Positions 3,553 through 33,640 of a DNA stretch of 33,640 bases are shown one piece after another. Where the stretch lies: contig CAJPFL010000152.1 in NCBI GenBank assembly GCA_905339315.1, forward strand, positions 1 through 33,640. Reading direction: 5' to 3'. Source of the stretch: Rhodocyclaceae bacterium (GTDB lineage Bacteria > Pseudomonadota > Gammaproteobacteria > Burkholderiales > Rhodocyclaceae). The notes under the pieces were generated by a model. It was not told the DNA's origin. It was given only the letters and a program-made list of their open reading frames with translations, and searched no databases. Made by a program: the position numbers and the translations under genes. Position 1 is the first letter of the stretch. Each line of letters opens with the position of its first letter.

Positions 3553-3560
3553 ACCGTCCT

Positions 3561-3606: not shown

Positions 3607-3642
3607 CCTCTGAAAATCTTTGCCTCACCTCCAGAAAGTTGC

Positions 3643-3672
3643 TTGACACGGGGTTTTTCAGCTTGCTATAAA
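3643..3672 (+). promoter_or_regulatory. sigma-70 promoter of hupB
   Basis: Consensus -35 TTGACA (3643-3648), an 18-base spacer and TATAAA (3667-3672) lie about 55 bases before the hupB start. This is one of the best promoter matches in the window and suits a highly expressed nucleoid protein. Confidence 0.8.
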
Positions 3673-3727
3673 GCGCCTTCGTCCTTCATGGTCAGTCATT
3701 CACCTATCCAAAGCAGAGGGGGCTTTT

Positions 3728-4000
3728 GTGAACAAATCCGAACTCATCGACCAAATCGCCAAGTCGGCCGATATCTCCAAAGCCGCCGCCGGCCGGGCGC
3801 TGGACGCCACCGTTGGTGCCATCAGGACCTCGCTGAAAAAGGGGGGCATGGTGACGCTGGTCGGTTTCGGCACGTTTTATGTAGGCAAGCGCGCAGCGCG
3901 CAGCGGCCGCAACCCGCGCACCGGCGCGACGATCAAGATCAAATCAGCGCGCGTACCCAAGTTTCGCGCTGGAAAAGCGCTGAAAGATGCGGTAAACTAG
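3728..4000 (+). CDS. hupB: HU-type nucleoid DNA-binding protein
   Basis: The 90-residue protein is a full-length HU/IHF-family histone-like protein that bends and compacts DNA as a dimer. It starts [18 protein letters not shown], has the core [21 protein letters not shown] that includes the flexible DNA-binding arm with its conserved RNP turn, and ends in the usual short helix. GTG at 3728 is the start, preceded by the purine-rich AGAGGGGGC. Position after lon and before ppiD matches hupB in E. coli, which favours HU-beta over IHF. A second family member, ihfA, lies at 24885. The strong upstream promoter indicates independent transcription. Confidence 0.96.
3970..3998 (+). promoter_or_regulatory. 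possible stable-RNA promoter for the tRNA-Val/tRNA-Asp pair
   Basis: TGGAAA (3970-3975), a 17-base spacer and TAAACT (3993-3998) lie at the end of hupB, followed by the GC-rich discriminator AGCGCGC typical of stringently controlled tRNA promoters. The -35 is weak, so read-through from hupB is an alternative. Confidence 0.3.
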
Positions 4001-4043
4001 CGCGCTTTTGCTGGGCCGCCTGGCGCTGGCGGCGAAAGCAAGC

Positions 4044-4119
4044 GGGTGCTTAGCTCAGCTGGTAGAGCGTCGCCTTTACACGGCGAATGTCGGCGGTTCG
4101 ATCCCGTCAGCACCCACCA
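4044..4119 (+). tRNA. tRNA-Val (anticodon TAC)
   Basis: The acceptor stem GGGTGCT pairs with AGCACCC, followed by A and encoded CCA. The D arm (TAGCTCAGCTGGTAGAGC), the anticodon loop TTTACAC with TAC, and the T loop GGTTCGATCC are all standard. Its length is 76 bases. It is co-oriented with tRNA-Asp 41 bases downstream. Confidence 0.97.
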
Positions 4120-4160
4120 GCCGGGGTTTGTGACGATCACGGCTGGGACAGCAGGACTCA

Positions 4161-4237
4161 GGAGTGGTAGTTCAGTTGGTTAGAATACCGGCCTGTCACG
4201 CCGGGGGTCGCGGGTTCGAGTCCCGTCCACTCCGCCA
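4161..4237 (+). tRNA. tRNA-Asp (anticodon GTC)
   Basis: Acceptor GGAGTGG pairs with CCACTCC, followed by G and encoded CCA. The anticodon stem CCGGC/GCCGG encloses the loop CTGTCAC with GTC, and the T loop GGTTCGAGTCC is standard. Its length is 77 bases. It ends 14 bases before a strong terminator and is likely cotranscribed with tRNA-Val(TAC). Confidence 0.97.
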
Positions 4238-4251
4238 ACACCGCAGGAAAG

Positions 4252-4275
4252 GGCGAACGCGAGTTCGCCTTTTTT
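4252..4275 (+). terminator. Rho-independent terminator of the tRNA-Val/Asp unit
   Basis: GGCGAAC (4252-4258) pairs with GTTCGCC (4263-4269) around a GCGA tetraloop and is followed by six T. It separates the tRNAs from ppiD. Confidence 0.9.
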
Positions 4276-4309
4276 CTTAGTATTTCCCTATCGACACGGG
4301 TAATCGATC

Positions 4310-6277: not shown

Positions 6278-6300
6278 GCGGCGCGATCTCCTGCAAGCTA

Positions 6301-6330
6301 AACGGGCTGCCAAGGCAGCCCGTTTCTTTT
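6301..6330 (+). terminator. terminator between convergent ppiD and fabI
   Basis: AACGGGCTGCC (6301-6311) pairs with GGCAGCCCGTT (6314-6324) and is followed by TTCTTTT. The stem is symmetric and A/T rich on both flanks, so it may serve both ppiD (+) and fabI (-). Confidence 0.85.
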
Positions 6331-6344
6331 CTGGCAATGTCGCT

Positions 6345-7142
6345 TTACGGCAGCGGTTCCGGGTTTCCGAGGGCGGTGGTGTTGAGGCCTCCGTCGACGT
6401 AAAGGATTTCACCGGTGATGGCGCTGGCGAGATCGGACAGCATGAAGGCGGCGGCATTGCCGACTTCCTCGATGGTCACGTTGCGCCTGAGCGGCGCATG
6501 GTGCGCGTTATAGGCCAGCAGCTTGCCGAAGTTGCCGATGCCGGAAGCGGCCAGGGTCTTGATCGGGCCGGCCGAGATGGCGTTGGCGCGAATGCCCTGC
6601 GGGCCGAGGCAGAAGGCGAGGTAGCGTGTGGCGGCTTCGAGGCTGGCCTTGGCCAGGCCCATGGTGTTGTAGTTCGGCAGGGTGCGCTCGGCGCCGAGGT
6701 AGGACAGGCACAGCAGCGCAGGATTGCGTCCCTTCAGCAACATCGGCCGCGCCGCCTTGGCGAGCGCCGGGAAACTGTAGGAGGACACGTCGTGGGCGAT
6801 GCGGAAGGCATCGCGCGTGATGCCGTCGAGAAAGTCGCCCTCGATGGCCTCGCTCGGCGCGAAAGCGATGGAATGCACCAGGCCTTCGAGGCCGTCCCAG
6901 TGCTTGCCGAGTTCGGTGAAGAGGGCATCGATCTGCGCGTCCTCCGCGACGTCGCAGGGGAAGATCAGCTTGCTGCGGAATTCCTCGGCGAACTTCGTAA
7001 TCCGTTCGTGGAACCGGTCGTTCTGGTAGGTGAAGGCCAGTTCTGCGCCCTCGCGATGGCAGGCCTTGGCAATGCCGTAGGCGATCGAGCGGTTGGATAG
7101 CAGGCCGGTGATGAGGATGCGTTTTCCAGCGAGAAAGCCCAT
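6345..7142 (-). CDS. fabI: enoyl-[acyl-carrier-protein] reductase, FabI type
   Basis: FabI performs the last NADH-dependent reduction of each fatty-acid elongation cycle. The start chosen is the ATG at 7142 ([13 protein letters not shown]), giving 265 residues against 262 for E. coli. A further 19 in-frame codons upstream would not match family N-termini and would run across the -10 box. The nucleotide-binding segment is [15 protein letters not shown] (11-25). The catalytic residues are Tyr148, Tyr158 and Lys165, in the Y-x6-K spacing, each offset by two from E. coli Tyr146, Tyr156 and Lys163. The C-terminal substrate-binding part ends GEILYVDGG. The gene is monocistronic with its own promoter and diverges from the ABC importer operon. 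Confidence 0.97.
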
Positions 7143-7169
7143 CGTCGAATCCCGTAAAATGACTGTGTG

Positions 7170-7199
7170 ATTATAGCGGAGCGCCGCAGATGACGCCAA
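7170..7199 (-). promoter_or_regulatory. sigma-70 promoter of fabI
   Basis: On the minus strand TTGGCG (7199-7194), an 18-base spacer and a perfect TATAAT (7175-7170) lie about 28 bases before the fabI ATG. The -35 overlaps the -35 region of the divergent importer promoter. Confidence 0.7.
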
Positions 7200-7218
7200 T
7201 TGGCCCTTCGGCTACACT
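7190..7218 (+). promoter_or_regulatory. weak promoter candidate for the peptide ABC importer operon
   Basis: ATGACG (7190-7195), a 17-base spacer and TACACT (7213-7218) would start RNA at about 7225, only three bases before the ATG at 7228. Each hexamer matches consensus at four of six bases. No good Shine-Dalgarno site exists, so a near-leaderless mRNA is possible. Confidence 0.35.
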
Positions 7219-7227
7219 CTTCGCACG

Positions 7228-9411
7228 ATGCGCGATTCGCCGATGCACGCCTGGCTGCTGGCCTTTGCTGTATTCCTCTCCGGTTGCGGCGAGGTCTGGA
7301 ATAATCCCTATCCGGCGCAGGAGACTGGCCGGAACATTCTCTACAGCGCCTTTACCGAGCGGCCCAAGCATCTCGATCCGGTGCAGTCCTACAGCGAGGA
7401 CGAGGCCGAATTCAATGCGCAGATTTACGAGCCGCCGCTGCAGTACCACTACCTGAAGCGTCCCTATACCCTGATTCCGCTGACGGCCGAGGCCCTGCCG
7501 CGGCCGCGCAGCGTGGATGCGGCCGGACGCGAGGTGCCGGCGGATTCGCCACGCGTGGCCCACACGCTGTACGAGATCCGCATCCGGCCGGGCATCCTCT
7601 ATCAGCCGCATCCCGCCTTTGCGCGCGACCCGGACGGAAAGCTGCTCTACCACAATCTCAAGCCGGATGATCTGAAAGGCATCTATTCGCTGCGCGACTT
7701 CCCTCAGACCGGCACGCGCGAACTGACGGCGGAGGACTATGCCTACCAGATCAAGCGCCTCGCCCATCCGCGCCTGCACTCGCCGGTGTTCGGCCTGATG
7801 AGCGAATACATCGTCGGCCTGAAGGCGTTCGCCGAGACGTTGAAGACCGAGGACAAGGCACTGGCTGCCTCCGGAACCGGGAATGCCTGGCTCGACTTGT
7901 CGAAGTTTCAACTCGCCGGCGTCGAACTGGTCGACAAGTACCGCTACCGCATCCGCATCAAGGGCCGCTATCCGCAGTTTGCCTACTGGCTGGCGATGAA
8001 TTTCTTCGCACCGGTGCCAATCGAGGCCGACCGCTTCTACGCCCAGGCCGGCATGGCCGAGAAGAACCTGACGCTCGACTGGTACCCGGTCGGCACCGGC
8101 CCCTACATGCTGACGGAGAACAATCCCAACGCCCGCATGGTGCTGGAACGCAACCCGAACTACCGCGGCGAGGCCTATCCCGCCGAAGGCGAGGCGGGCG
8201 ATGCTTCTGCCAGCCTGCTCGCCGACGCCGGCAAACGCATGCCCTTCATCGACAGGGTGGTGTTCTCGCGCGAGCGCGAGGGCATTCCCTACTGGAACAA
8301 GTTCCTGCAGGGCTACTACGATTTTTCCGGCATCAGTTCCGACAGCTTCGACCAGGCGGTGCGCATCTCGGTCGAGGGCGAGGCCAGTGTTTCCCCGGAA
8401 ATGAAGTCAAAGGGCATCAAGCTGGAGGCTTCGGTCGGTACCGCCACGCGCTATTTCGCCTTCAACTGGCTCGACCCGGTCGTCGGCGGCGGCCAGGCCG
8501 ATGCGCCCGGCCGCGAGCGCGCAAGAAAATTGCGCCAGGCGATCTCCATCGCGCTCGACTGGGAAGAGTTCATCTCCATCTTCGCCAACGGCCGCGGCAT
8601 TCCCGGACAGGGTCCGATCCCGCCCGGCATCTTCGGCTTCCGGACGGGCGGTGAAGGCATCAACCCGGTCGTGTACGACTGGGTGGGCGATGCGCCGCGG
8701 CGCAAATCGATCGAGGCGGCGAAGCAGCTGCTCGCCGAGGCCGGCTACCCGGACGGGCGCGAGGCGAAGAGCGGCCAGCCGCTGGTGCTCTACCTCGACA
8801 CCACCGACCGCGGCCCGGGCGACAAGCCGCGCCTCGACTGGTACCGCAAGCAGTTCGCCAAGCTCGACCTGCAACTGGAAATCCGCGGCACCGACTACAA
8901 CCGCTTCCAGGAGAAGGTGCGCAAGGGCGCGGCGCAGATTTTCGTCTGGGGCTGGAACGCCGACTATCCCGACCCGGAGAATTTCCTCTTCCTGTTCCAT
9001 GGCGCGCAGAGCCGGGCGAAATTCCAGGGTGAGAACGCCGCCAACTACGCCAACCCGGAATACGACCGGCTCTTCGAGCAGGTGAAGCACATGGAGAACG
9101 GCCCGGCGCGCCAGGCCCTGATCGACCGCATGCTGGCCATCCTGCGCGAGGATGCGCCCTGGTCCTTCGGCTTCCATCCCAAGGACTACAGCCTGCATCA
9201 CGACTGGGTGGGGAATCTGAAGCCCAACAACATGGCGAGGAACGGCCTCAAGTACCGGAAGATCGATGCGGCGCGACGCGAGAGATTGCGGGCCGAGTGG
9301 AACCGGCCGGTGCTGTGGCCGCTCGGCCTGCTTGCCGCCGTCCTCGCCGCCAGCGCGGCGCCGGCGGCATGGGGTTGGCGCCGGCGGGAGCAGTCGAAAG
9401 GGCGTACTTGA
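7228..9411 (+). CDS. peptide/oligopeptide ABC importer, substrate-binding protein (family 5) with C-terminal membrane anchor
   Basis: This is a 727-residue family-5 solute-binding protein, of the type that delivers peptides to YejABEF/Opp/Dpp importers. The N-terminus MRDSPMHAWLLAFAVFLSGC is a lipoprotein signal with lipobox LSGC and lipidated Cys20; Met6 is an alternative start. The body has typical family features such as PVGTGPYML and VWGWNADYPDPENFLFLFHG. Unusually, the C-terminus carries a hydrophobic helix (about 694-717, PVLWPLGLLAAVLAA onward) followed by WRRREQSKGR, whose charge predicts a cytoplasmic end. The protein could therefore be tethered to the inner membrane at both ends. 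Its stop overlaps the next start (TGATG). The substrate cannot be told from sequence; YejA-like peptides are the best guess. Confidence 0.9.
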   Translation: MRDSPMHAWLLAFAVFLSGCGEVWNNPYPAQETGRNILYSAFTERPKHLDPVQSYSEDEAEFNAQIYEPPLQYHYLKRPYTLIPLTAEALPRPRSVDAAGREVPADSPRVAHTLYEIRIRPGILYQPHPAFARDPDGKLLYHNLKPDDLKGIYSLRDFPQTGTRELTAEDYAYQIKRLAHPRLHSPVFGLMSEYIVGLKAFAETLKTEDKALAASGTGNAWLDLSKFQLAGVELVDKYRYRIRIKGRYPQFAYWLAMNFFAPVPIEADRFYAQAGMAEKNLTLDWYPVGTGPYMLTENNPNARMVLERNPNYRGEAYPAEGEAGDASASLLADAGKRMPFIDRVVFSREREGIPYWNKFLQGYYDFSGISSDSFDQAVRISVEGEASVSPEMKSKGIKLEASVGTATRYFAFNWLDPVVGGGQADAPGRERARKLRQAISIALDWEEFISIFANGRGIPGQGPIPPGIFGFRTGGEGINPVVYDWVGDAPRRKSIEAAKQLLAEAGYPDGREAKSGQPLVLYLDTTDRGPGDKPRLDWYRKQFAKLDLQLEIRGTDYNRFQEKVRKGAAQIFVWGWNADYPDPENFLFLFHGAQSRAKFQGENAANYANPEYDRLFEQVKHMENGPARQALIDRMLAILREDAPWSFGFHPKDYSLHHDWVGNLKPNNMARNGLKYRKIDAARRERLRAEWNRPVLWPLGLLAAVLAASAAPAAWGWRRREQSKGRT

Positions 9412-10388
9412 TGCTGGCCTACATTGTCCGCCGCCTGCTTTATGCCCTGCCGATCCTGATCGGCGTGAACCTCCTCACCTTCACCCTGTTCTTCGTGGTG
9501 AACACGCCCGACGACATGGCGCGCATGCAGCTTGGCATCAAGCGCGTCACGCCGGAGGCCATCCAGAAGTGGAAGGCGGAGCGGGGCTACGACCAGCCGC
9601 TGCTCTACAACGAGGCGGCCGAGGGTGCCGGCAAGGTCACGCGCACCATCTTCTTCGAGAAGTCGGTGAAACTGTTTGTCTTCGACTTCGGACGAGCCGA
9701 CGACGGCCGCGACATCGGGCACGAGATCAAGACGCGCATGGGCCCGAGCCTGGCGATCGCCGTGCCGGTGTTCCTGCTCGGCCTCTTCGTCACGGTGTCC
9801 TTCGCCCTGGTGCTGGCCTTTTTCCGCGCCACCTATCTCGATTTCTGGGGCGTGGTGGCCTGCGTCGCCATGATGTCGATCTCCAGCCTGTTCTATATCA
9901 TCGGCGGGCAATACCTGGTGAGCAAGATCTGGCACCTGGTGCCGATCTCGGGCTACGCCGGCGGGCTGGATGCCGCGCGCTTCCTGATCCTGCCAGTGCT
10001 GATCAGCATGGTGGCCGGCATCGGCAGCAGCACGCGCTGGTACCGCACCATCTTCCTCGAGGAGATCGGCAAGGATTACGTGCGCACGGCGCGCGCCAAG
10101 GGGCTGTCGGAGATGGCGGTGCTGTTCCGCCACGTGCTGAAGAACGCCATGATCCCGATCCTCACCGGCGTGGTGGTGGTGATCCCGCTGCTCTTCATGG
10201 GCTCGCTGCTGGTCGAATCCTTCTTCGGCATTCCCGGGCTGGGCTCGTACACCATCGATGCCATCAATGCGCAGGACTTCGCCGTGGTGCGCGCGATGGT
10301 CTTCATCGGCTCGGTACTCTACATCGTCGGCCTGCTGCTGACCGACCTGTCCTACACCCTGGTCGACCCGAGAGTGAGGCTGCAGTGA
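9411..10388 (+). CDS. peptide ABC importer permease 1 (OppB/DppB/YejB-like)
   Basis: This 325-residue inner-membrane permease begins MLAYIVRRLLYALPILIGVN, the standard N-terminal transmembrane signature of the OppB/DppB family. About six membrane helices can be seen. The ATPase-contacting EAA loop is in the stretch DYVRTARAKGLSEMAVLFRH, and the C-terminus LLTDLSYTLVDPRVRLQ is the family ending. The frame is open upstream, but MLAY at 9411 is the only start that fits the family and overlaps the previous stop by one base (TGATG), indicating translational coupling. It pairs with the next permease to form the pore. Confidence 0.93.
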   Translation: MLAYIVRRLLYALPILIGVNLLTFTLFFVVNTPDDMARMQLGIKRVTPEAIQKWKAERGYDQPLLYNEAAEGAGKVTRTIFFEKSVKLFVFDFGRADDGRDIGHEIKTRMGPSLAIAVPVFLLGLFVTVSFALVLAFFRATYLDFWGVVACVAMMSISSLFYIIGGQYLVSKIWHLVPISGYAGGLDAARFLILPVLISMVAGIGSSTRWYRTIFLEEIGKDYVRTARAKGLSEMAVLFRHVLKNAMIPILTGVVVVIPLLFMGSLLVESFFGIPGLGSYTIDAINAQDFAVVRAMVFIGSVLYIVGLLLTDLSYTLVDPRVRLQ

Positions 10389-11824
10389 TGCCGATCATCC
10401 TGTGGACCGACGCCCTCGTCTTCCTGCTGATCGCCTGCGGCATCGGCTCGGGGTTCTACATCGGCCGTCGCGAGTATTTGCTGGCCTCCTGGCGCCGTGT
10501 CGGCGAGAGCCGCGCCGGCATGGCGGCGCTGACGGTGCTGGCGGCCTTCATCGTCCTCGGCCTGCTCGACTCGCTGCACTACCGGCCGCGCCTGGAAGCC
10601 GTCGCCGGACAGCCCGCCAATGGTTACAGCAGCGAGGTGCGCAGCGCGCTCGATGCACTTTTGCTGCCGCTGAGATCCGGCACCGAGAAGACCTACTCCG
10701 CGCCGCTGGCGACCCATCTGTATGCCCGGGAGACGGTGGAGCTGCCGGACGGCACACAGGCGCGGGTGTTTCCCCGCCTCAGGCACGGCGGCGCACATCT
10801 CCAGGATCCCGTCGAAGAGTGGGCGCGCGATGTGTCATGGAAGGTAGCGCGCGGACTCGCCTTCGCCGTGCTGGCGGGACTGACTTTTGCGGCGATCGCG
10901 GTGCAGGCGGCCGCCCTGCGCTGGGGCGTGGGCTGGCCGGCGGCCTGGCGCCGCATCCGGCGCGGCGAGACGCAATTTGCCTGGAACGCGGTGCTGGCCA
11001 CGCTGGCGGTCCTGCTGCTGCTCGGCGGCCCCGTCGCGGCGCTGGCCGGCGGCTACCATGTATTCGGCACCGACAAGGTCGGCCAGGACGTGCTCTACCT
11101 CACCCTGAAGAGCATCCGCACCGGCCTCGTGATCGGCACCATCACCACGCTGGCGATGCTGCCCTTCGCGGTGGCGCTGGGCATCGTCGCCGGCTATCTC
11201 GGCGGCTGGGTGGACGACGTAATCCAGTACCTCTACACGACGCTCAACTCGATCCCCGGCGTGCTGCTGATCGCCGCCTCGGTGCTGATGATGCAGGTGG
11301 TGATCGACACGCATCCGGACTGGTTCGCCACATCCGCCCAGCGCGCCGACGCGCGCCTGCTGGCGCTCTGCTTCATCCTCGGCGTGACCAGCTGGACGGG
11401 CCTGTGCCGACTGCTGCGGGCGGAAACCCTCAAGCTGCGAGAGCTCGATTATGTTCAGGCGGCGCAGGCCTTCGGGGCATCGGCGACGGGCATCATGGGC
11501 CGCCACATCCTGCCCAACGTCATGCACATCGTGCTGATCGCGGTGGTGATGGATTTTTCCGGCCTGGTGCTGGCCGAGGCGGTGCTGTCCTACATCGGCA
11601 TCGGCGTCGACCCCAGCACCATCAGCTTCGGCACGATGATCAACACCGCGCGCCTGGAGCTGGCACGCGAGCCGGTGGTGTGGTGGTCGCTGGTGGCGGC
11701 CTTCGCCTTCATGTTCGTCCTGGTGCTGGCGGCCAACCTGTTCTCCGATGCGGTGCGCGATGCCTTCGATCCGCGCATCGCCGGTCGGCGCATCGCCGCT
11801 ACTGCACAGGGACAAGCGGCATGA
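10388..11824 (+). CDS. peptide ABC importer permease 2 (OppC/DppC/YejE-like), enlarged
   Basis: This is the second pore subunit, 478 residues, clearly longer than usual (E. coli YejE is about 340). The extra length is N-terminal: helices at about 8-25 and 44-60, a soluble, probably periplasmic segment (about 61-150), another helix (about 153-175) and a short basic loop. The family core begins near residue 226 with FGTDKVGQDVLYLTLKSIRTG. The EAA loop follows in DYVQAAQAFGASATGIMGRH, and the end (FSDAVRDAFDPR) is typical. The ATG at 10388 overlaps the previous stop (TGATG) and its own stop overlaps the ATPase start (ATGA). The role of the inserted segment is unknown. Confidence 0.9.
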   Translation: MPIILWTDALVFLLIACGIGSGFYIGRREYLLASWRRVGESRAGMAALTVLAAFIVLGLLDSLHYRPRLEAVAGQPANGYSSEVRSALDALLLPLRSGTEKTYSAPLATHLYARETVELPDGTQARVFPRLRHGGAHLQDPVEEWARDVSWKVARGLAFAVLAGLTFAAIAVQAAALRWGVGWPAAWRRIRRGETQFAWNAVLATLAVLLLLGGPVAALAGGYHVFGTDKVGQDVLYLTLKSIRTGLVIGTITTLAMLPFAVALGIVAGYLGGWVDDVIQYLYTTLNSIPGVLLIAASVLMMQVVIDTHPDWFATSAQRADARLLALCFILGVTSWTGLCRLLRAETLKLRELDYVQAAQAFGASATGIMGRHILPNVMHIVLIAVVMDFSGLVLAEAVLSYIGIGVDPSTISFGTMINTARLELAREPVVWWSLVAAFAFMFVLVLAANLFSDAVRDAFDPRIAGRRIAATAQGQAA

Positions 11825-13836
11825 GCCTGCTGCGCGTCGAAGGCTTGCGAACTTGTTTGCTGAGCGCCGCCGGGATTGTGCGCGCAGTCGATGATGTGTC
11901 GTTCGACGTCGAAGCGGGGGAAACCTTCGCCCTGCTGGGCGAGTCCGGCTGCGGCAAGTCGATGACGGCGCTCTCGCTGATGCGACTGCTGCCGGACGCC
12001 GGCAGCATAGTCGGCGGACAGGTACTGCTGGACGGGCGCGACCTGCTGGCGCTTTCCGAGGCCGAGATGCGCGATGTGCGCGGCCGCGAGATGGCGATGA
12101 TCTTCCAGGAGCCCGCCACCAGCCTGAATCCGGTGCTCAGCGTCGGCCGGCAGATCGTCGAGGTGCTGGAACGGCATACCCCGATGCAGGGGACGGCGGC
12201 GCGCCGGCGCGCCCTGGAGCTTGTCGACGCGGTCGGCATTCCCGATCCGGCGCGGCGCCTCGACGAGTTCCCCTTCCAGCTCTCGGGCGGCATGAAGCAG
12301 CGCGTCATGATTGCCATGGCGCTGGCCGGCGATCCCCGCCTGCTGATCGCCGACGAGCCGACCACCGCGCTCGACGTGACGATCCAGGCGCAGGTGCTCG
12401 GACTGCTCGGGCAGCTGCAGCGCGATCGCAACATGGGCATGCTGCTCATCAGCCACGACCTGGGCATCGTCTCGCAACTGGCGCAGCGGGTCGGCGTGAT
12501 GTATGCCGGCGAGCTGGTCGAGGTTGCCGCGCGAGGGGCGTTTTTCGCATCGCCGAAGCATCCCTATACGCACAAGCTGTTTGCCGCGCTGCCCCGCCCG
12601 GAGCGTCGCGGCGGCACGCTGGAGACCATCCCCGGCAGTGTCCCGCCGCTGACGACGATCTTTTCCGGCTGCCGCTTCGCCGAGCGCTGTCCGCGCGCCT
12701 GGGCGCGCTGCCGGGAGGAAGTGCCAGCCTGGCATGTTGCGTCGGACGGCCATGCCGTGCGCTGCCATCTGTACGATCCGGAGCAGGCCGGCGAGAGCGG
12801 CCGGCACCGTGCTGCAGCATCGGTGGCGCCCTTCAGCACGGACACCGGGGCCACATCGCCGCCGGCCGGTGCACCACTGCTGGAAGTGGCCGACCTGAAA
12901 ATGCATTTCCCCATCCGCAAGGGCGTTTTCCAGCGTGTCGCCGGGCAGGTCAAGGCAGTCGACGGCGTATCGCTGAGACTGACTTTGGGCCGCACGCTGG
13001 CGCTGGTGGGGGAGTCGGGCTGCGGCAAGACGACGGCCGGCAAGGCCATCCTGCAACTGCTGCGGCCGACCGGCGGCAGCGTGCGCTTCGAGGGCGAGGA
13101 ACTCACCGCCCTGCCGCCGGCCCGCCTGCGCGCGCTGCGGGCGGACATGCAGATCGTGTTCCAGGATCCTTATGGTTCGCTGGATCCGCGCATGCGGGTA
13201 GGCGACATCATCGAGGAGGGCATGGCCGCCCTCGACACGGCGTCCGGTCGCGCTGCGCGCGACAGGCGGATCGATGAACTGCTGGAACGGGTCGGGCTGT
13301 CGGCCGGGATGCGCGGGCGCTATCCGCACGAGTTTTCAGGCGGGCAGCGCCAGCGCATCGCCATTGCACGGGCGCTGGCCGTCGCGCCGCGCCTGCTGGT
13401 CTGCGACGAGCCGACCAGCGCGCTCGATGTCTCGGTGCAGGCGCAGATCCTCAATCTGCTGAAGGAACTGCAGGCCTCGCTCGGCCTTGCCTATCTGTTC
13501 ATCACTCACAACATCGCCGTCGTGGAGTACCTGGCGCACGAAATCGCGGTGATGTACCTCGGCCGCATCGTCGAGCGGGGGACGGTGGAGGAAATCCTGC
13601 AAGACCCGAAGCATCCCTACACGGAAGCCCTGCTGTCGGCCGTGCCACGCCTCGATGCCGAGGGGCAGCGCCCGGTGATCGTGCTCAAGGGCGACATGCC
13701 GTCGCCGGCCAATCCGCCCGCCGGCTGCCATTTTCATCCGCGCTGTCCACGGGTGATGCCGCAGTGCGCCAGGGCCTACCCCGCCGAAACGCTGCTCGGC
13801 GGGGCACGCAGCGTGCGCTGCTTCCTCTACGAATAA
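11821..13836 (+). CDS. peptide ABC importer ATPase with two fused nucleotide-binding domains (YejF-like)
   Basis: This 671-residue protein joins both ATPase subunits (OppD-like and OppF-like) in one chain, as in YejF. Domain 1 has Walker A GESGCGKS at 40-47, signature LSGGMKQR and Walker B LLIADEPTTALD. Domain 2 has Walker A GESGCGKT at 397-404, signature FSGGQRQR and Walker B LLVCDEPTSALD. Both domains end with the oligopeptide-transporter C-terminal extension containing Cys clusters (GCRFAERCPRAWARC and GCHFHPRCPRVMPQC), which in relatives can hold an iron-sulfur cluster. All catalytic motifs are intact. ATG at 11821 overlaps the permease stop by four bases (ATGA). It is last in the operon and converges with mltD seven bases downstream. 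Confidence 0.95.
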   Translation: MSLLRVEGLRTCLLSAAGIVRAVDDVSFDVEAGETFALLGESGCGKSMTALSLMRLLPDAGSIVGGQVLLDGRDLLALSEAEMRDVRGREMAMIFQEPATSLNPVLSVGRQIVEVLERHTPMQGTAARRRALELVDAVGIPDPARRLDEFPFQLSGGMKQRVMIAMALAGDPRLLIADEPTTALDVTIQAQVLGLLGQLQRDRNMGMLLISHDLGIVSQLAQRVGVMYAGELVEVAARGAFFASPKHPYTHKLFAALPRPERRGGTLETIPGSVPPLTTIFSGCRFAERCPRAWARCREEVPAWHVASDGHAVRCHLYDPEQAGESGRHRAAASVAPFSTDTGATSPPAGAPLLEVADLKMHFPIRKGVFQRVAGQVKAVDGVSLRLTLGRTLALVGESGCGKTTAGKAILQLLRPTGGSVRFEGEELTALPPARLRALRADMQIVFQDPYGSLDPRMRVGDIIEEGMAALDTASGRAARDRRIDELLERVGLSAGMRGRYPHEFSGGQRQRIAIARALAVAPRLLVCDEPTSALDVSVQAQILNLLKELQASLGLAYLFITHNIAVVEYLAHEIAVMYLGRIVERGTVEEILQDPKHPYTEALLSAVPRLDAEGQRPVIVLKGDMPSPANPPAGCHFHPRCPRVMPQCARAYPAETLLGGARSVRCFLYE

Positions 13837-25590: not shown

Positions 25591-25668
<78 letters not shown>

Positions 25669-25699
25669 TTAAAAAACAAGAACTTATCAAGAAATGAAG

Positions 25700-25727: not shown

Positions 25728-25751
25728 GCGGTACGGTTTGCGGTACGGTTT
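25728..25751 (+). repeat. tandem 12-bp direct repeat beside the tRNA-Pro terminator
   Basis: GCGGTACGGTTT occurs twice in exact tandem (25728-25739, 25740-25751); an inverted TACCGC follows at 25761-25766. Short repeats at this position near a tRNA integration site resemble arm-type integrase binding sites. That role is inference; no integrase gene is visible. Confidence 0.6.
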
Positions 25752-25826: not shown

Positions 25827-25855
25827 TTGACGCCAGTAACCCAACCGGTTAGGAT
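25827..25855 (+). promoter_or_regulatory. promoter candidate for the DUF4160/DUF2442 pair
   Basis: TTGACG (25827-25832), a 17-base spacer and TAGGAT (25850-25855) predict RNA start at about 25861-25863, on or next to the ATG at 25861. The mRNA could be leaderless. Confidence 0.5.
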
Positions 25856-25860
25856 TGTGC

Positions 25861-26109
25861 ATGCCAACGATCAGACGCATCGGAGCTTGCCGCGTGGTCG
25901 TCTATCCGAACGATCATCGCCCGGCGCATGTGCATATCATTGGCGAAGGATGCGAGGCGGTATTCAAGCTCAACTGCCCGAAGGGGCCGCCAGAGCTGCG
26001 CGAAAACTACGGCTTCAAGCCGGTAATGCTGGGCGCGTTCCTGACGGAATTGAAGGCCGAGGTTGAAGTGTTGTGCGAGGAATGGAGGAATATTCATGGC
26101 TATCCCTAA
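25861..26109 (+). CDS. DUF4160-family protein, possible toxin-antitoxin partner
   Basis: This small 82-residue protein matches DUF4160: a short basic N-terminus MPTIRRIGACRVVVYPNDH, then the family mark NDHRPAHVHI and a C-terminal helix (LTELKAEVEVLCEEWRNIHG). The biochemical role of DUF4160 is not established; it is often next to a DUF2442 gene, as here, and the pair is commonly predicted to be a toxin-antitoxin system. The ATG at 25861 is preceded by AGGA, but that overlaps a predicted -10 box. Its last 14 bases overlap the DUF2442 gene, indicating coupled translation. It is the first gene after the tRNA-Pro boundary. Confidence 0.8.
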   Translation: MPTIRRIGACRVVVYPNDHRPAHVHIIGEGCEAVFKLNCPKGPPELRENYGFKPVMLGAFLTELKAEVEVLCEEWRNIHGYP

Positions 26110-26509
26110 GAGCGAGATCGAGCAGGCCAATCGACGCGGCCGCGCCCGCCTGCGTTCTTCGCCCATTGCAAAAACTGCGCGCTACGATCGCGGCCGCATC
26201 ATCATCGAGATGAGCACGGGGCTGGAACTGTCCTTCAAGGCCCACGATGCCCAGGGCCTGGCGCGGGCAACACCCGCCCAGTTGCGCGAGATCGAGGTCA
26301 CACCGACGGGATTGGGGCTCCATTTTCCGCAGCTCGATGCCGATATCTACCTGCCTGCGTTGTTGGATGGTTTTCTCGGCTCGAAGATGTGGATGGCGCG
26401 ACTGGGACAACGCGGCGGCAGCGTGGCGAGCCCGGCCAAGGCCGCTGCTGCCCGCGCCAATGGAAAACTGGGCGGCCGGCCTCGCAAGACCATGAAGGAA
26501 GCCGCATGA
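26096..26509 (+). CDS. DUF2442-family protein, partner of the DUF4160 gene
   Basis: The 137-residue protein contains a DUF2442 domain (about 38-102): YDRGRIIIEMSTGLELSF, then LREIEVTPTGLGLHFPQLDADIYLPALLDGF. The C-terminal tail (about 108-137) is Ala/Gly/Arg-rich and basic (AAARANGKLGGRPRK), resembling a DNA-contacting tail. DUF2442 domains are small and often form the second gene of DUF4160 pairs; the usual guess is that this is the antitoxin or regulator. ATG at 26096 has an excellent GGAGGA seven bases upstream, inside the preceding gene. Confidence 0.8.
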   Translation: MAIPKSEIEQANRRGRARLRSSPIAKTARYDRGRIIIEMSTGLELSFKAHDAQGLARATPAQLREIEVTPTGLGLHFPQLDADIYLPALLDGFLGSKMWMARLGQRGGSVASPAKAAAARANGKLGGRPRKTMKEAA

Positions 26510-26568: not shown

Positions 26569-27432
26569 TCACTTCACCACCGTCACCCTCACCTCCTGCC
26601 TCCCTTCCCCGCGATAGCGGTCGAGATCGACACCGCGCAACTCCGGGATGCGCTTGTAATCCACGTTCCCGGGCTTCCACAGCCTCACCACGCTGACGCC
26701 GGCGCCTTGCTCCCGCGGATGCCGCGAGAGCGCCACCAGTGCCTTCCTGGCCGCTTCCAGTACATCGTCCGCAGCCTCCGCCTGCCGCTTCGCCATCAGG
26801 TAGTCCTGCGCGGCTTGTGACCACGCTGGATCGTCGCGCTGCGCCGAGTCTGCGTCTGTAAGCGGCGGCGGGGTGTCGCTGTCCAGATACGGCTGGAAGG
26901 CGTCCCACGCTTCGCGGATCAGGGACATCAGCTCCTCGTCGCGCTGCACGGTGACGAGCAGCCCCTCGCCCTCGGCATACACCCACAGGTGGGCGGTTGA
27001 GGCGCCCGAGACCATCAGCTGGTGCTGCACCTGGGCGGCGTAGTGGCCGGGGATCCTCCCCTCGGCCGCTTCGCGCCACAGGCTCGACTGCCGCCCCCGG
27101 AACGGGCACTTCACCTCGACGATGAGCGTGCCGGCGAGGTTGATGCCGTCGAGGCTCGCCGAATACAGCCCGTCCTGCAGCACCAGCGGGTTCATGATCT
27201 CGCCGGTCTGCGCTTCATACGCGGCGCGTGCCTGCGGCTCCAGCTGCGTGCCGTGGGCCATGGCCGGCGTCACCTGCTGGCTGCTGCGGCCGGTTTTCAC
27301 GAGCCACAGCCCGTAGGGGGTGAGCCAGGGGCTGATGCCCAGCACCGCCGGGGTCTCGGAGGCGTTCCTCATCTCCTTCCTGTAGGCCAGCCACTCGGGC
27401 GAGCCCTGCACCAGTTTCAGCACGGCGCTCAT
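26569..27432 (-). CDS. YqaJ-type phage recombination exonuclease
   Basis: This 287-residue protein has a YqaJ viral-recombinase/lambda-exonuclease-like nuclease domain (about 1-195). It begins with the family mark VQGSPEWLAYRKEMRNASE, then ETPAVLGISPW, HGTQLEPQARAAYEAQTGE, a catalytic Asp in SASLDGI, the E-x-K pair in IVEVKCPFRG, and HYAAQVQHQLMVSGA. These are the PD-(D/E)XK residues expected for a 5'-3' exonuclease that makes single-stranded tails. The C-terminal part (about 210-287) is helical and unassigned. Start ATG at 27432 overlaps the annealing-protein stop (TGATG), so nuclease and annealase are translationally coupled, as in Exo/Beta pairs. GGAGG precedes the start. Confidence 0.88.
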   Translation of the reverse strand: MSAVLKLVQGSPEWLAYRKEMRNASETPAVLGISPWLTPYGLWLVKTGRSSQQVTPAMAHGTQLEPQARAAYEAQTGEIMNPLVLQDGLYSASLDGINLAGTLIVEVKCPFRGRQSSLWREAAEGRIPGHYAAQVQHQLMVSGASTAHLWVYAEGEGLLVTVQRDEELMSLIREAWDAFQPYLDSDTPPPLTDADSAQRDDPAWSQAAQDYLMAKRQAEAADDVLEAARKALVALSRHPREQGAGVSVVRLWKPGNVDYKRIPELRGVDLDRYRGEGRQEVRVTVVK

Positions 27433-28061
27433 CACGCGGCCTCCTTGCGGTTGCGCGCCTGCTCCAGGCTGCGGATGACGCGGCTGGCCTCGTTCTTGGC
27501 GATGTCCTCCAGCCGATCGATGCCGAAGTAGTCGAGCACCTTCTGCCGCTCGGTGCCGGATTCCTCGATCAGGCGCTCGATGTAGCGCACCTGGGCCGAG
27601 GTGATGGCATCTCCAGTCTTCTTCTCCGCCGGTGGCGGGAAACTCGCCACCTTGGCCGGTGCCGGCGCCTCGGCTTCAACGAGGGGCAGGTCTTCGCCGG
27701 CGTAGATGCTCAGCCCCAGCCCGTGCAGCGCGATGGCCTTCACCAGGCAGCGCTGGATGCTGGTGTTGATGTCGAAGCTCGACGGCGCCAGAATCGGCCG
27801 GTTCTTCGCATCCAGCACCGGGTGGATCTGGCTCAGCGTGACTCCCTGCACCGTCACCGCCACCTCGACGAAGACGCCGAGGTCGGTGATCAGGTAGGGC
27901 AGCCCATTGAAGCGCTTCACTTCCCACTGTGCCTGCGGATCGGCCAGGCGCAGCTGGGCCACGGCATAGGGCCAGGACAGGTAGTCGAACTGGCCCTTCT
28001 TCTCCACGTACTTCGCCACGTCGATCTCGAACAGGCGACGAAACGCATTGCTCTCTTGCAT
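27432..28061 (-). CDS. single-strand annealing protein, DUF1071/Sak3-like
   Basis: This 209-residue protein matches the DUF1071 (Sak3-like) phage recombinase family. The domain (about 1-135) shows FDYLSWPYAVAQLRLADPQA, then HPVLDAKNRPILAPSSFDIN and TSIQRCLVKAIALHGLGLSI ending YAGEDLP, which is the strongest family mark. A Pro/Ala linker (about 130-150) leads to a small helical domain (SAQVRYIERLIEESGTERQK onward) common at annealase C-termini. It should anneal complementary single strands made by the downstream exonuclease. ATAGGAGAT precedes the ATG. A structured 190-base gap separates it from ardC upstream. Confidence 0.88.
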   Translation of the reverse strand: MQESNAFRRLFEIDVAKYVEKKGQFDYLSWPYAVAQLRLADPQAQWEVKRFNGLPYLITDLGVFVEVAVTVQGVTLSQIHPVLDAKNRPILAPSSFDINTSIQRCLVKAIALHGLGLSIYAGEDLPLVEAEAPAPAKVASFPPPAEKKTGDAITSAQVRYIERLIEESGTERQKVLDYFGIDRLEDIAKNEASRVIRSLEQARNRKEAA

Positions 28062-28254: not shown

Positions 28255-29133
28255 TCAGGCCGCCAGCGCCTCGGCTTCCGGACTGGGCGCGGCGTGCGCC
28301 GTGCCGAGGACGAAGTCCGCCGCCTTCTGCGCGGCGCCCGCGGCGACAAAGATGAGGCGTTTGTCGTGGCGCAACGCCGCCAGCCACTGCTCGATGTAGC
28401 TGGCGTGCTCAAGGTGGCCCGGGATGCCGCAGTGGGCGCACAGGAAGGCCGCGCCCATCTCCGCCACCAGTTCCTCGTAGGCGTAGGCATCGATGCCGTG
28501 GCGCCGGCCGAGCGGCCGGTCGAGCCGGCGCGGATGCCCGGTCCAGTGAGCGAGCTCGTGCAGCGCCGTGGCGTAATAGCCCTCGGCCTCGGGAAACCAT
28601 CCCGGCGGCGGCAGTTGGATGAGATCCTCGCCCGGCAGGTAGCAGGCGCGGCTGCCGCCGTGGCGGATCAGCGCGCCGGATTCCCGGAGCAGGGTCTCCG
28701 CTTCGGCGACCGGCTGCCACTGCGGCTGCTGGCCGAGGTTGAAGCGCTCGGGCAGGAACTCCACCTGGCTGGCGTTGAACACCGTGTAGGCGCGCAGCAA
28801 CGGCACCACGCGCTTCGGTGCGTCGTCTTCCTCCGGGGCGTCTTCGTCCAGCTCGCGCCACTTGAAGAACACCACCGCGGCGCCGCGTTCGCCGCGCTTG
28901 ATGCGGCCACCCAGGGCGTTGGCCTGCCGGAGCGTCAGCCAGCGGCTGTCGGCGAAGCCGCGCTCCATCGCCTCGCAGGCCAGCATGAGCACGTTGATGC
29001 CCCGGTAGGGCTTGCCCGTGGCGAGGTTGGCGGGCAGCGCCATGCCCTCGCGCCAGGGGCAGAGCCAGGGCGGCGTGCCGGTTTCGAGCGCGGCGATGAT
29101 GCGCTCGGTGACTGCCTGGTACAGATCGTTCAT
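28255..29133 (-). CDS. ArdC-family antirestriction protein
   Basis: ArdC proteins bind single-stranded DNA and protect incoming mobile DNA from restriction. The 292 residues comprise an N-terminal ssDNA-binding domain (about 1-130: DLYQAVTERIIAALETGTPP, PWREG, GKPYRGINVLML, WLTLRQANALGG, GERGAAVVFFKW) and a zincin-like metallopeptidase domain with HELAHWTGH (His192, Glu193, His196) and the downstream acidic ligand in YEELVAEMGAAFLCA. All metal residues are intact. The ATG at 29133 has AAGGAG with good spacing. It is the middle gene of the minus-strand island operon. It probably acts early after transfer, before the host's restriction enzymes cut the element. Confidence 0.92.
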   Translation of the reverse strand: MNDLYQAVTERIIAALETGTPPWLCPWREGMALPANLATGKPYRGINVLMLACEAMERGFADSRWLTLRQANALGGRIKRGERGAAVVFFKWRELDEDAPEEDDAPKRVVPLLRAYTVFNASQVEFLPERFNLGQQPQWQPVAEAETLLRESGALIRHGGSRACYLPGEDLIQLPPPGWFPEAEGYYATALHELAHWTGHPRRLDRPLGRRHGIDAYAYEELVAEMGAAFLCAHCGIPGHLEHASYIEQWLAALRHDKRLIFVAAGAAQKAADFVLGTAHAAPSPEAEALAA

Positions 29134-30301: not shown

Positions 30302-31030
30302 TTATCTGCGGACACAAGTTGAGTTGTAGGGATTCCCGTCCAAGGACTCACACATGTAACCAATGTCGCACTGCGATGATGAGGAACATCGCATAACATG
30401 TGTTCCTCCTGCCTTTATAGAATAATCAGGAACACCCGGACTCTTCTCTACTTTGTGACAGACTCCCATAGATGCACCGCCAACCTTCACGCATTTTGTC
30501 CCATCAGGACACCCTACATCAGAAACACAATAATCCGCCGTTACATTAGGCCTTGCCGAAGAAGACCTGGCTGGTGGGCGAGGCAAGTGCGATGCACATA
30601 GGTTGGCCATAGCGTCCCCACCAGGTGCGCCTTTTTTCACCATTGCGAGCATCCGGTCTGAGCATTCCTGAAAACCCTTCATCTGCTTCTCAAGAATACG
30701 AACTTGTCGCTCTTTTTCTTCAGGAGAAACGCTTGATCGCTTTACTGGGTCTTCCTTTGAAGCCTTAATGTTTCTGTCGCGTCCCTCGTCTCTAGGAATT
30801 GGTTTATTGGATTGTTCCCTTAGGCCAGAATGATCCAGTGAGCTTACCGATCCGCGTGACAGAGCTTCTTCTTTGCCCTGACAGGGAATATCTGAGTACT
30901 CAACCTTTCCACTTGGCCCTCTACATTTATATATGCTCTGCGATTTTAGATCAGGCGAAATGATAACGATCAGAACAATAGAGGCTGCCAACAGAATCCG
31001 CGATTGAAGTTGTCTCGTGGCGAATGTCAT
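30302..31030 (-). CDS. secreted DUF4124-like protein with tandem Cys-rich repeats
   Basis: This 242-residue protein has an N-terminal signal/anchor (about 9-28, LQSRILLAASIVLIVIISPD) and then a DUF4124-like motif SIYKCRGPSGKVEYSDIPCQ (about 32-51). A charged middle (about 52-125, KEEALSRG to EKQMKG) follows. The C-terminal third has two copies of a C-x5-C-x5-C-x10/11-C pattern: CVSDVGCPDGTKC to MGVC, and CSSSSQCDIGYMC to NSTC. Even Cys number in each copy suggests disulfides and an exported location. GAGGGG precedes the ATG. It follows the Sel1 gene by 32 bases. The DNA is visibly less GC-rich than the core, pointing to transfer. Function unknown. Confidence 0.75.
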   Translation of the reverse strand: MTFATRQLQSRILLAASIVLIVIISPDLKSQSIYKCRGPSGKVEYSDIPCQGKEEALSRGSVSSLDHSGLREQSNKPIPRDEGRDRNIKASKEDPVKRSSVSPEEKERQVRILEKQMKGFQECSDRMLAMVKKGAPGGDAMANLCASHLPRPPARSSSARPNVTADYCVSDVGCPDGTKCVKVGGASMGVCHKVEKSPGVPDYSIKAGGTHVMRCSSSSQCDIGYMCESLDGNPYNSTCVRR

Positions 31031-31062: not shown

Positions 31063-32193
31063 TCATCCAAGCGGCAATACCGCCCTATGTGGCGGAATTT
31101 TCAATGGCCGTGGCTTTTCCCGATAAACGCTCCGTATCTGCTCAGCTTCATCCTGCCAGTATGCGGCCTTCCTCTTGTCAACGGGCACGCCGTGGCCGTA
31201 ATAGTAGATCGAAGCAAGATTGTCGGCGGCAATCGGGTCGCCCACCTCTGCCGCATTCGTCAGCAGTGACAGCCCCTCGCTGACTTCTTCGGCGCTGCGC
31301 TCGGGACCTACCAAAGCATTCCCAAGATAGCGCATTCCTTCCCTGTCATTTTTTTCCGCGGCTTTGCGCAACCAGCGAAGGGCTTCACTCCGATCCTCCG
31401 CAACGCCCCAGCCATACAGATAGCAGGTTCCAAGCACTCCCATTGCTTCATCGCTTCCCTTCTCGACGGCGCGTCGGAATAGCTGAAATGCTCGCGCAAT
31501 GTCCTGAATCACACCCTCGCCGTTCATATACATCAGCCCCAGCACGTAGCTGGCAAACGGGTCTCGTTCAGACGCTGTCGCAAACCAACGGGCGGCTTCA
31601 GAATAATTCTGCAGAACGCCGAAGCCACCCAGATATATAACACCAACCTCTGTCTGCGCTTCGGCATCCCCCATTTCCGCCGCGCGCCGAAAGTAAGATA
31701 GTGCCTGGCCTGCATCGGGCGGAGCACCCTTGCCTTCCAGATACATGGCACCGAGCAATAGCATCGCTTTCGTGTGGCCAAGTTCAGCTGCGCGGCGATA
31801 TTTCTCCGCAGCACCCGACAAGTTTGCGGGCGTTTTCCTGTGTTCAACGAGACCTAGGGTATAAACGGCCTGCGGATACCCCTTTGCCGCTGAACTCAGG
31901 ATCAGCGCTATTCCTTCTGCTTGCTTGCCGCTTGCCAACAGCGTGCGGCCATACTGGTAAATGAGGCGGGAGTTTTCCGGCCCCTGCTCCATAGCCTTCT
32001 TGCAGGCGCTCAATGCTTCAGGCAATGGGATTTTCTCGAATGGCAGGCCAGCGTTCTTGCGTTCCGGATCATCCGGATGAGCCGCGAGGTTGTCACATTC
32101 ATCGATGTCTGATGCGCCGACAGAGGCAGAATGGATGAGTGCCGACGTTACAACGGCGAGAAGACAGGGCAGGCGGCGCGATTTGAGTTTCAT
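31063..32193 (-). CDS. secreted Sel1-repeat (TPR-like) protein
   Basis: The 376-residue protein starts with a signal peptide (MKLKSRRLPCLLAVVTSALI, cleavage near SVGA-S at about 27). A TPR-like segment (about 55-105) precedes about six Sel1 repeats (about 108-345) with the AA.LGH.KAM..LG..YLEGKG pattern, for example AAELGHTKAMLLLGAMYLEG and AVEKGSDEAMGVLGTCYLYG. Such solenoids mediate protein-protein contacts in the periplasm or outside. Repeats do not tell the partner. It is the first gene of a two-gene minus-strand unit with the Cys-rich protein, behind a good promoter at 32235-32263. Lower GC than the core suggests acquisition. Confidence 0.85.
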   Translation of the reverse strand: MKLKSRRLPCLLAVVTSALIHSASVGASDIDECDNLAAHPDDPERKNAGLPFEKIPLPEALSACKKAMEQGPENSRLIYQYGRTLLASGKQAEGIALILSSAAKGYPQAVYTLGLVEHRKTPANLSGAAEKYRRAAELGHTKAMLLLGAMYLEGKGAPPDAGQALSYFRRAAEMGDAEAQTEVGVIYLGGFGVLQNYSEAARWFATASERDPFASYVLGLMYMNGEGVIQDIARAFQLFRRAVEKGSDEAMGVLGTCYLYGWGVAEDRSEALRWLRKAAEKNDREGMRYLGNALVGPERSAEEVSEGLSLLTNAAEVGDPIAADNLASIYYYGHGVPVDKRKAAYWQDEAEQIRSVYREKPRPLKIPPHRAVLPLG

Positions 32194-32402: not shown

Positions 32403-32792
32403 ATGAACATCGTCGAACAAGTCAAGCAGACAGCGGTAAGTTCATTTCACAACATCCTGCGCGCAAGCGCCCACCACAATGGTCGGTTTCGGATGGTGCT
32501 GACGACGAGAATAGGCGATGGCGACAAGCCGCTTCTGATCGTCGGCAACGCGCATGGGGTTGTCGAGGACGGTCACTGCATTGCCATCCTGAATCCGGAC
32601 AAGGATCTGGCCAACCTGATCAGGCCGGGCTGCGCCTATGGCATAGGGGGCCTCAAGAAAATCGTTTCGAAGCGATGCGACCTAGCGCTCGATCTGTGGA
32701 TCGACGCTTACAAGGGGCCTAAGCACGCGGTTTCGGTGATCGCGCGCTACAGGGCTCGTCATCCCAAGCCGGCGAAGTTCATCGTGAGTTGA
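32403..32792 (+). CDS. hypothetical protein, 129 residues
   Basis: ATG at 32403 has GGGAG upstream. The protein (MNIVEQVKQTAVSSFHNILR onward) looks soluble, alpha/beta and basic toward the C-terminus (YRARHPKPAKFIVS). The stretch LLIVGNAHGVVEDGHCIAIL reads like two strands around a turn. I recognise no family. Divergent from the Sel1 gene, it is followed seven bases later by the terminase small subunit, with which it may form an operon. A weak promoter candidate is TTGTGA (32343-32348), 16 bases, TAAACT (32365-32370). Confidence 0.65.
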   Translation: MNIVEQVKQTAVSSFHNILRASAHHNGRFRMVLTTRIGDGDKPLLIVGNAHGVVEDGHCIAILNPDKDLANLIRPGCAYGIGGLKKIVSKRCDLALDLWIDAYKGPKHAVSVIARYRARHPKPAKFIVS

Positions 32793-32799
32793 GACAGCT

Positions 32800-33219
32800 G
32801 TGCAGCTGACCCTCCGCCAGGAGCGCTTTGTAGCCGAGTACGTCGTGACTCGGAACGGCGCGGAAAGCGCCAGGCGCGCCGGTTACAGTGAACGCACCGC
32901 TCGGCAGATCGCCGCCGAGAACTTGTCAAAACCTGACATACAGGCCGCCCTGGCAGCCAAGGAAGCTGAGCTGGCGGTGCGCCTGGAGATCGACCGCGAG
33001 GTGGTCGTCGGCGGCATCCTGCAGTCTATCTCTACGGCCATGGGACAAGGTAACCCTGGCCAGGCGATTCGCGGCTGGGTCGAGGTGGCGCGGATCCTGG
33101 GCTTGGATAAACCTGAGGCGGCGCACAGGGCGCTGAGCGCGGAGGACGCGCGGCTGAGGGCGAAGTTCGAGGGGATGACGGACGAGGAGCTGATGGCGAT
33201 TGCTGAGGGCAGAGCTTAA
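32800..33219 (+). CDS. phage terminase small subunit-like protein (TerS)
   Basis: This 139-residue protein matches the terminase_2 small-subunit family, the DNA-recognition component of phage packaging motors. The N-terminal helix-turn-helix-type domain (about 1-60) shows LTLRQERFVAEYVVTRNGAE, SARRAGYSERTARQIAAENL and KPDIQAALAAKEAEL, all typical. The middle (RLEIDREVVVGGILQSISTA) and WVEVARILGLDKPEA also fit. The C-terminus EGMTDEELMAIAEGRA is a common terminase-end helix. GTG at 32800 is the likely start. No large subunit, portal or capsid gene is in the window; it could be a prophage remnant, a satellite gene, or continue past the window. Confidence 0.82.
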   Translation: MQLTLRQERFVAEYVVTRNGAESARRAGYSERTARQIAAENLSKPDIQAALAAKEAELAVRLEIDREVVVGGILQSISTAMGQGNPGQAIRGWVEVARILGLDKPEAAHRALSAEDARLRAKFEGMTDEELMAIAEGRA

Positions 33220-33427: not shown

Positions 33428-33640
33428 ATGGAAATCATCATGTCTTATTTACATGTAGCTTTGAAATGGTGGCAATCCTTGGGGTATGACGTCCACTATA
33501 AAATCTGGCTGGGCGCAGGCATTGCCATGCTTGTCTTGTGGCTGTGGGCCGCGTACTACATGACGCGCCGCCTCTTGGGGCACCGGAAGATCAACGGTGC
33601 GTGGATAGGGGTCGAGGAATTTGAGGCTTTCCTTGACAGG
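33428..33640 (+). CDS. small membrane protein, 3' end beyond window
   Basis: ATG at 33428 is preceded by GGGAGG and the frame stays open for 71 codons to the window end. It begins MEIIMSYLHVALKWWQSLGY, then one clear membrane helix (about 31-50, IWLGAGIAMLVLWLWAAYYM), a basic boundary MTRRLLGHRK and the start of a soluble part (INGAWIGVEEFEAFLDR). The charge pattern predicts N-out, C-in. I do not recognise the family. The gap upstream (33220-33427) holds the palindrome but no gene. Confidence 0.7.
   Translation, partial: MEIIMSYLHVALKWWQSLGYDVHYKIWLGAGIAMLVLWLWAAYYMTRRLLGHRKINGAWIGVEEFEAFLDR

Follow-up and report, generated by a model that had tools for sequence, protein, structure and literature searches.

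A candidate PICI-like phage satellite with its own small terminase gene in a tRNA-Pro gene of a Rhodocyclaceae genome

Staphylococcal pathogenicity islands (SaPIs) are described, in the part of the account available, as encoding their own small terminase subunit (TerS), which directs packaging of the island by the helper machinery (PMC6092414). For Gram-negative PICIs, the consulted portion of a later study reports that a layout of inward-facing integrase, AlpA and primase separates these elements from prophages, the latter being reported with an outward integrase and without AlpA; Phage_AlpA occurred in all 203 fis satellite models, against 1 of 169 prophage models (PMC10111431). A core of int, alpA and a DUF3987-type primase is given for PICMI satellites in the accessible sections of PMC10803314, and two papers are listed for DUF3987 together with integrase and AlpA (PMC10803314, PMC9964261). 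In the open-licence literature, neither a phage satellite in Rhodocyclaceae nor a PICI in Zoogloea was found, which is a weak absence, and none of the matches listed there combined phage satellites, PICI or TerS with Betaproteobacteria.

Here we describe an island with one arm in a 33,640-bp stretch of DNA (the window), which makes up all of contig C152 in a draft assembly (2.28 Mb in 299 contigs, 77% complete), and the other arm on contig C153 of the same assembly. We consider it probable that this island is a TerS-bearing, PICI-like phage satellite integrated in a tRNA-Pro gene, a claim that an unassembled gap between the two arms keeps short of proof. The integrase of the island points inward and AlpA is present, which differs on both counts from the reported description of prophages.

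Boundaries and gene content of the island

The last chromosomal genes in the window are pheS and pheT, then genes of the HU/IHF and MerR types, and finally tRNA-Pro(ggg). The features of the tRNA gene and of the arm that follows it are as follows (positions in the window, strand, description).

25592–25668, +, tRNA-Pro(ggg) (ARAGORN), insertion target of the island
25624–25670, +, attL, a 47-bp repeat of the tRNA-Pro 3′ half, with an exact second copy, attR, at C153:26806–26852 (−)
25728–25751, +, doubled 12-bp motif GCGGTACGGTTTGCGGTACGGTTT, recurring within attR on C153 in the same orientation
26096–26509, +, DUF2442 protein, cargo (Pfam 9e-14)
26569–27435, −, YqaJ-type (RecE-like) exonuclease (Pfam 3.1e-25; PHROG 434 3e-41)
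27432–28061, −, Sak single-strand annealing protein (Pfam 1.1e-43; PHROG 8492 1.8e-53)
28255–29133, −, ArdC-type anti-restriction protein (Pfam ArdcN 2.9e-35 and MPTase-PolyVal 1.6e-46; PHROG 7245 1.9e-78)
30302–31030, −, DUF4124 protein, cargo (Pfam 8.1e-06)
31063–32193, −, Sel1-repeat protein, cargo (Pfam 2.8e-43)
32403–32792, +, ORF for a 129-aa protein, ending 7 bp before TerS
32800–33219, +, terminase small subunit TerS, 139 aa, GTG start (Pfam Terminase_2, PHROG 51, PDB TerS)
33428–33640, +, 5′ part of an ORF with a hydrophobic stretch, running off the contig; no match to any Pfam family, TerL included

The 47-bp attL sequence has exactly one further copy in the assembly, namely attR, past which C153 carries ORFs that were named by eye as surE, pcm, nlpD and rpoS. 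The doubled motif occurred at these two ends and nowhere else across the window and C153, and it likely represents the arm sites of the integrase or AlpA. Of 16 genomes searched in the genus, source included, 15 gave a match (G014 had none), and all 14 matching genomes other than the source displayed an uninterrupted tRNA-Pro/surE junction, or empty site, although in G003 the contig stops 20 residues into surE. Taken together, the second 47-bp copy, the doubled motif at both ends and the empty sites argue for the arms on C152 and C153 being parts of one element. In the part of the source at hand, HE-PICI attP sites carry a similarly placed doubled motif of other sequence, which the study did not detect in other PICIs (PMC10111431); the likeness of the island's doubled motif is therefore one of analogy only.

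The arms measure 8.0 kb at the window end and 6.5 kb at the C153 end, so that ~14.5 kb of the island is visible, with a gap of unread length between C152:33640 and C153:33362. No second copy of the last 200 bp of the window was detected in the assembly, the best other match being 17 bp. Over 234 bp, the terminal sequence of C153 (positions 13130–13362 of locus L022) is 95% identical to that of contig C184, so that C153 probably broke at a repeated Sel1 gene. The stretch shared with the Sel1 gene at the C153 break is, on C184 (locus L286, 4743–5428), the final part of a Sel1-repeat gene situated directly after a tRNA-Thr, which makes this tRNA-Thr a second location of the same cargo and perhaps the site of a second island.

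Reading inward from attR, one strand of the C153 arm encodes a tyrosine integrase, a 248-aa unknown protein, AlpA (two genes after the integrase; Phage_AlpA 1.3e-14 in Pfam), a 99-aa unknown protein, a CHC2 zinc finger, Prim-Pol and DUF3987 (3.3e-78). After DUF3987, the other strand carries a SRAP gene and then the cut Sel1-repeat gene, the latter named by eye. The original prediction had placed annealase and exonuclease genes in the island, and the Pfam matches of Sak and YqaJ listed above confirm both. Next to attL, an 84-aa ORF overlaps the start of the DUF2442 gene (25855–26509), a pair that we take to recall a toxin-antitoxin-like unit. PADLOC returned a single, very weak match, of YqaJ to DruA (E 0.005).

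Among the Pfam-searched ORFs of the ~14.5 kb visible in both arms, no TerL or structural family was found. The TerL families PF03237 and PF04466 also had no match in the source genome at E ≤ 0.1 (genome 77% complete); this search comprised these two families. C152 terminates 421 bp 3′ of TerS, so absence of TerL, portal or capsid genes cannot be read from the window itself, and this final segment contains an ORF of 49 aa besides the truncated ORF listed above.

DUF3987 relatives were present in 33 of 398 genomes, source included, and profile searches of stretches from 19 of the 32 other positive genomes revealed no TerS near DUF3987. One such genome, of another genus (G266; contig C169, loci L150 2175–20000 and L183), carries an Int-DUF3987 element after a tRNA-Pro(ggg), with ORFs of 719, 432 and 1152 aa that are type I restriction-like by size and order; no TerS was found in this element.

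The small terminase and its Zoogloea relatives

The gene at 32800–33219 had been predicted to encode a terminase small subunit, and this identification was borne out by Terminase_2 (6e-19; 69.5 bits, cut-off 26.1), by PHROG 51 (5.6e-21) and by PDB sequence matches to the small terminases 4zc3, 3zqp and 2cmp. A Foldseek search with an AlphaFold model of the protein (mean pLDDT 82.1) ranked SF6/SPP1-like small terminases in the first four places, although no match reached E ≤ 0.001. Promoter and terminator scans around TerS and the 129-aa gene did no better than shuffles.

TerS matches were found in 7 of 149 searched genomes, including the source, and in no other genome of the source genus. A scan of genome contigs with three TerS sequences produced six loci, the best being that of Zoogloea sp. 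MAG-181, whose TerS is 48% identical to that of the window over residues 2–139. In genome G142, the TerS relative looks like a chromosomal relic, with folD-, pyrD- and IS21-like ORFs (by eye) adjacent to it.

The MAG-181 TerS lies in an element (locus L187 9402–16885, JAEUNU010000190.1) that extends from a tRNA-Arg(ccg) over 7,431 bp to an incomplete repeat of the 3′ half of this tRNA (53 nt, 81% identical, the first 20 exact); this right boundary is inferred because only 178 bp lie past the repeat. Its genes encode TerS, a hydrophobic protein, a protein of 567 aa that looks helicase-like by eye and has no Pfam match above cut-off, a primase of the RepB type and an integrase that points inward. 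TerS is convergent with the replication genes, the integrase stands at the far end, and no TerL was detected by profiles. A doubled TACGGAA motif was observed near both ends (9496/9507 and 16708/16719), with one more copy in the locus. A cultured strain, Z. ramigera NBRC 15342, carries a TerS 46% identical to that of the window on one 4.7-kb contig (L104, the same as L188), which ends 1.7 kb after TerS. There, TerS is followed by a hydrophobic-protein gene (46% identical to its MAG-181 counterpart) and an opposite-strand gene, and a fragment of the 567-aa protein is 95% identical between the two. The TerS genes of the two Zoogloea elements differ by a dN of 0.048 and a dS of 0.208. The 7.4-kb MAG-181 element, with its sibling in the cultured strain, is probably a small phage satellite. 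Homologues of the window TerS are thus not confined to full prophages, the two closest among the matches listed being in Zoogloea elements without detectable TerL.

Viral contigs (up to 80 loci from each of two scans), phage records and genomes provided 175 TerS rows in which the position of TerL relative to TerS was surveyed, using TerL profiles built from five seeds within a range of 6 kb from TerS. Among the matches listed, no TerL was detected within 6 kb in 12 of the 175 rows, namely the window, L104, L107, L148, L149, L187, L188, L199, L204, L208, L231 and L251, of which L199, L204, L231 and L251 (contigs ending ≤1.9 kb downstream) and L104/L188 (at 1.7 kb) are not firm TerL negatives. 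A Terminase_6 TerL is present in genome G087. For the distance count, the window and the duplicates L188, L189 and L195 were dropped, leaving 171 rows; 158 of these had a same-strand downstream TerL, within 421 bp in 130 rows and further away in 28 (matches listed). As TerL stands more than 421 bp away in 28 of the 158, a stretch of 421 bp without TerL constitutes only mild evidence.

A careful tree of 32 hand-picked TerS rows placed the window in an 11-row group (support 93/92), inside which the order is open. The group consists of the window, L104, L187, L204, L105, L206 and five rows with TerL 1.8–3.5 kb downstream; in L105, a Uliginosibacterium prophage, and in L206 a Terminase_6 TerL overlaps TerS. 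In a quick tree of 172 rows, the window and Zoogloea TerS formed a clade with an SH-aLRT of 88, which the careful tree neither recovered nor rejected (p-AU 0.38). L204 (IMGVR_UViG_3300020704_000143, 1006–11696) is a viral contig with genes for HsdR/S/M and an Mrr-type nuclease. Its TerS, a member of the 11-row group, is followed by an opposite-strand AAA_25 ATPase gene and, 1.3 kb after TerS, by the contig end; L204 is possibly a defence-carrying satellite.

The C-terminal part of TerS contacts TerL. The N-terminal domain was read as DNA-binding on account of the solved DNA-binding domains matched in PDB and Foldseek. When the two halves of the window TerS were compared separately, 18–19 of 38 C-terminal and 18–21 of 57 N-terminal residues agreed with the Terminase_6 phages L189, L205 and L206, while the agreement with the Zoogloea TerS was 14–17 of 39 in the C-terminal and 37 of 60 in the N-terminal part. 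The corresponding values were 11/37 and 24/60 for L204, while other TerS types reached 6/38 (L030) and 6/29 (L028) in the C-terminal part. This pattern would fit a satellite TerS that docks on the TerL of local phages and reads other DNA, although an ordinary phage TerS (L193) is as close in the N-terminal half (39/60), which counts against the satellite reading.

The 129-aa protein upstream of TerS

A gene for a 129-aa protein had been noted seven bases upstream of TerS, an arrangement that the two ORFs at 32403–32792 and 32800–33219 confirm. No family match was obtained for this protein in Pfam, PHROGs, PADLOC or NCBIfam, no relatives were seen in the scans of genome contigs and viral contigs, and a single-sequence structure model was unusable (pLDDT 33). 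Among 398 genomes, three had matches: the source, G076 and G271. The relatives in the latter two, which belong to one genus of the family, are 30–31% identical over residues 4–98 and sit 6 bp upstream of SRAP genes. A tblastn search over 303 loci identified no relative outside the source genome beyond these two, and a weaker match was present inside the source genome, on contig C45 (E 4e-4). The pairs of homologue and SRAP gene, at 12324–13337 of L181 and 10980–12059 of L182, suggest a two-gene unit. The island has a SRAP gene too, on the arm opposite to the 129-aa gene.

The protein had also been proposed as a possible part of the packaging module. This role is unsupported, since its sole outside relatives across the 303 loci precede SRAP genes; it is probably not packaging-specific, a link with DNA repair being at least as likely as one with packaging, and the gene is presumably island cargo.

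Alternative explanations and known systems

The original prediction had likened the locus to phage satellites, naming a degraded prophage as the plain alternative. The core of the satellite reading gained weight from the inward integrase with AlpA and primase, from the Zoogloea TerS elements without detectable TerL and from the 14 of 14 empty sites, and it lost the packaging module built around the 129-aa protein. If the island is such a satellite, a helper phage would switch on AlpA, upon which the element would excise and replicate with its own primase, and Sak and YqaJ may help to produce concatemers. The island TerS would mark island DNA and dock on the helper TerL through its C-terminal part, the island DNA thereby being packaged into helper particles, and ArdC would guard this DNA against restriction on its entry into the next cell.

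The island could alternatively be part of a larger element, either a prophage or a satellite with capsid genes of its own, with TerL and structural genes located in the gap and the lone TerS being an artefact of the contig break. The stop of C152 421 bp after TerS is compatible with this, as are the phage-type recombination genes Sak and YqaJ and the 28 of 158 loci, among the matches listed, where TerL lies beyond that distance, five rows of the window's own TerS group included. We nevertheless regard such an element as unlikely, given that an inward integrase adjoining AlpA is the layout reported for PICIs and not for prophages, that PF03237 and PF04466 had no match at E ≤ 0.1 in the 77% complete source genome, and that the two closest TerS among the matches listed occur in elements without detectable TerL.

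TerS is encoded by an intact ORF, with the C-terminal part retained, and a homologous TerS recurs in two Zoogloea elements of the same layout, with dN below dS. Both observations speak against a mosaic genomic island that acquired terS from a decayed prophage and retains it as a relic or as DNA-binding cargo with no role in packaging. That explanation can draw on the lack of TerS around DUF3987 in stretches from 19 of 32 other positive genomes, on the G266 element, which occupies the same tRNA-Pro with restriction-like ORFs and no TerS found, and on the relic-like TerS of G142. It is also favoured by the strand of TerS, opposite to the integrase, AlpA and primase core and unlike the usual late zone of PICIs, a feature that counts against the satellite reading. 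Overall, we judge the mosaic origin rather unlikely.

A broader proposal, possible but doubtful, is that the satellite reading extends to a TerS-guided satellite line in the family of Zoogloea. Such a line would run across unrelated replication modules (DUF3987; RepB-type), its TerS combining a half that docks on local Terminase_6 TerL with a DNA-recognition half of its own, and Sak/YqaJ would make concatemers for headful packaging. If true, packaging hijack based on TerS would reach a family with no satellite described in the open-licence literature searched, and the Zoogloea 7.4-kb element would represent a near-complete natural test element. The class of helper would also be named, as Terminase_6 phages sharing the C-terminal part of TerS, and the question of how a satellite TerS picks its own DNA yet works with a foreign TerL would become directly testable.

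The Zoogloea elements resemble the island in having TerS followed by a hydrophobic-protein gene and convergent with the replication module, an inward integrase at the far end, a tRNA site and a doubled motif near both ends. The hydrophobic proteins themselves are dissimilar between the window and Zoogloea, and the Zoogloea element is 7.4 kb long, has a RepB-type primase and the 567-aa protein where the island has DUF3987, and showed no AlpA by Pfam among the searched ORFs and no Sak/YqaJ. Lactococcus bIL310, which is considered a satellite, is a 15-kb record that likewise has genes for an integrase and a helicase and, towards its far end, a TerS of the Terminase_2 type, with no TerL annotated; it differs by its Firmicute host, a TerS 31% identical, and repressor and anti-repressor genes.

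SaPIs share with the island the possession of their own TerS, a likeness drawn from the SaPI description in the available part of PMC6092414. They belong to another phylum and carry a repressor (Stl) and capsid-remodelling genes. With the PICMI of Vibrionaceae the island has in common int, alpA and a DUF3987-type primase; in the accessible sections of that report, PICMI occupy a fis site, have a prototype of ~6 kb and no terS homologue, whereas the island lies in tRNA-Pro, spans at least 14.5 kb and has terS (PMC10803314). As its site is tRNA-Pro and not fis, the island is not a PICMI despite the shared core.

Compared with Gram-negative PICIs, for which the island offers the genes of its two arms alone, the TerS of the island stands on the opposite strand, its cargo includes Sak/YqaJ, ArdC and Sel1, and its replication genes are of the DUF3987/Prim-Pol type. 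As far as the consulted parts of the two accounts describe them (PMC6092414, PMC10111431), Gram-negative PICIs have terS as an optional gene, and structural genes were not seen in the ~14.5 kb of the island; shared between the two are the att repeats, an inward integrase, AlpA and a primase on one strand, and an att site in a tRNA or other gene.
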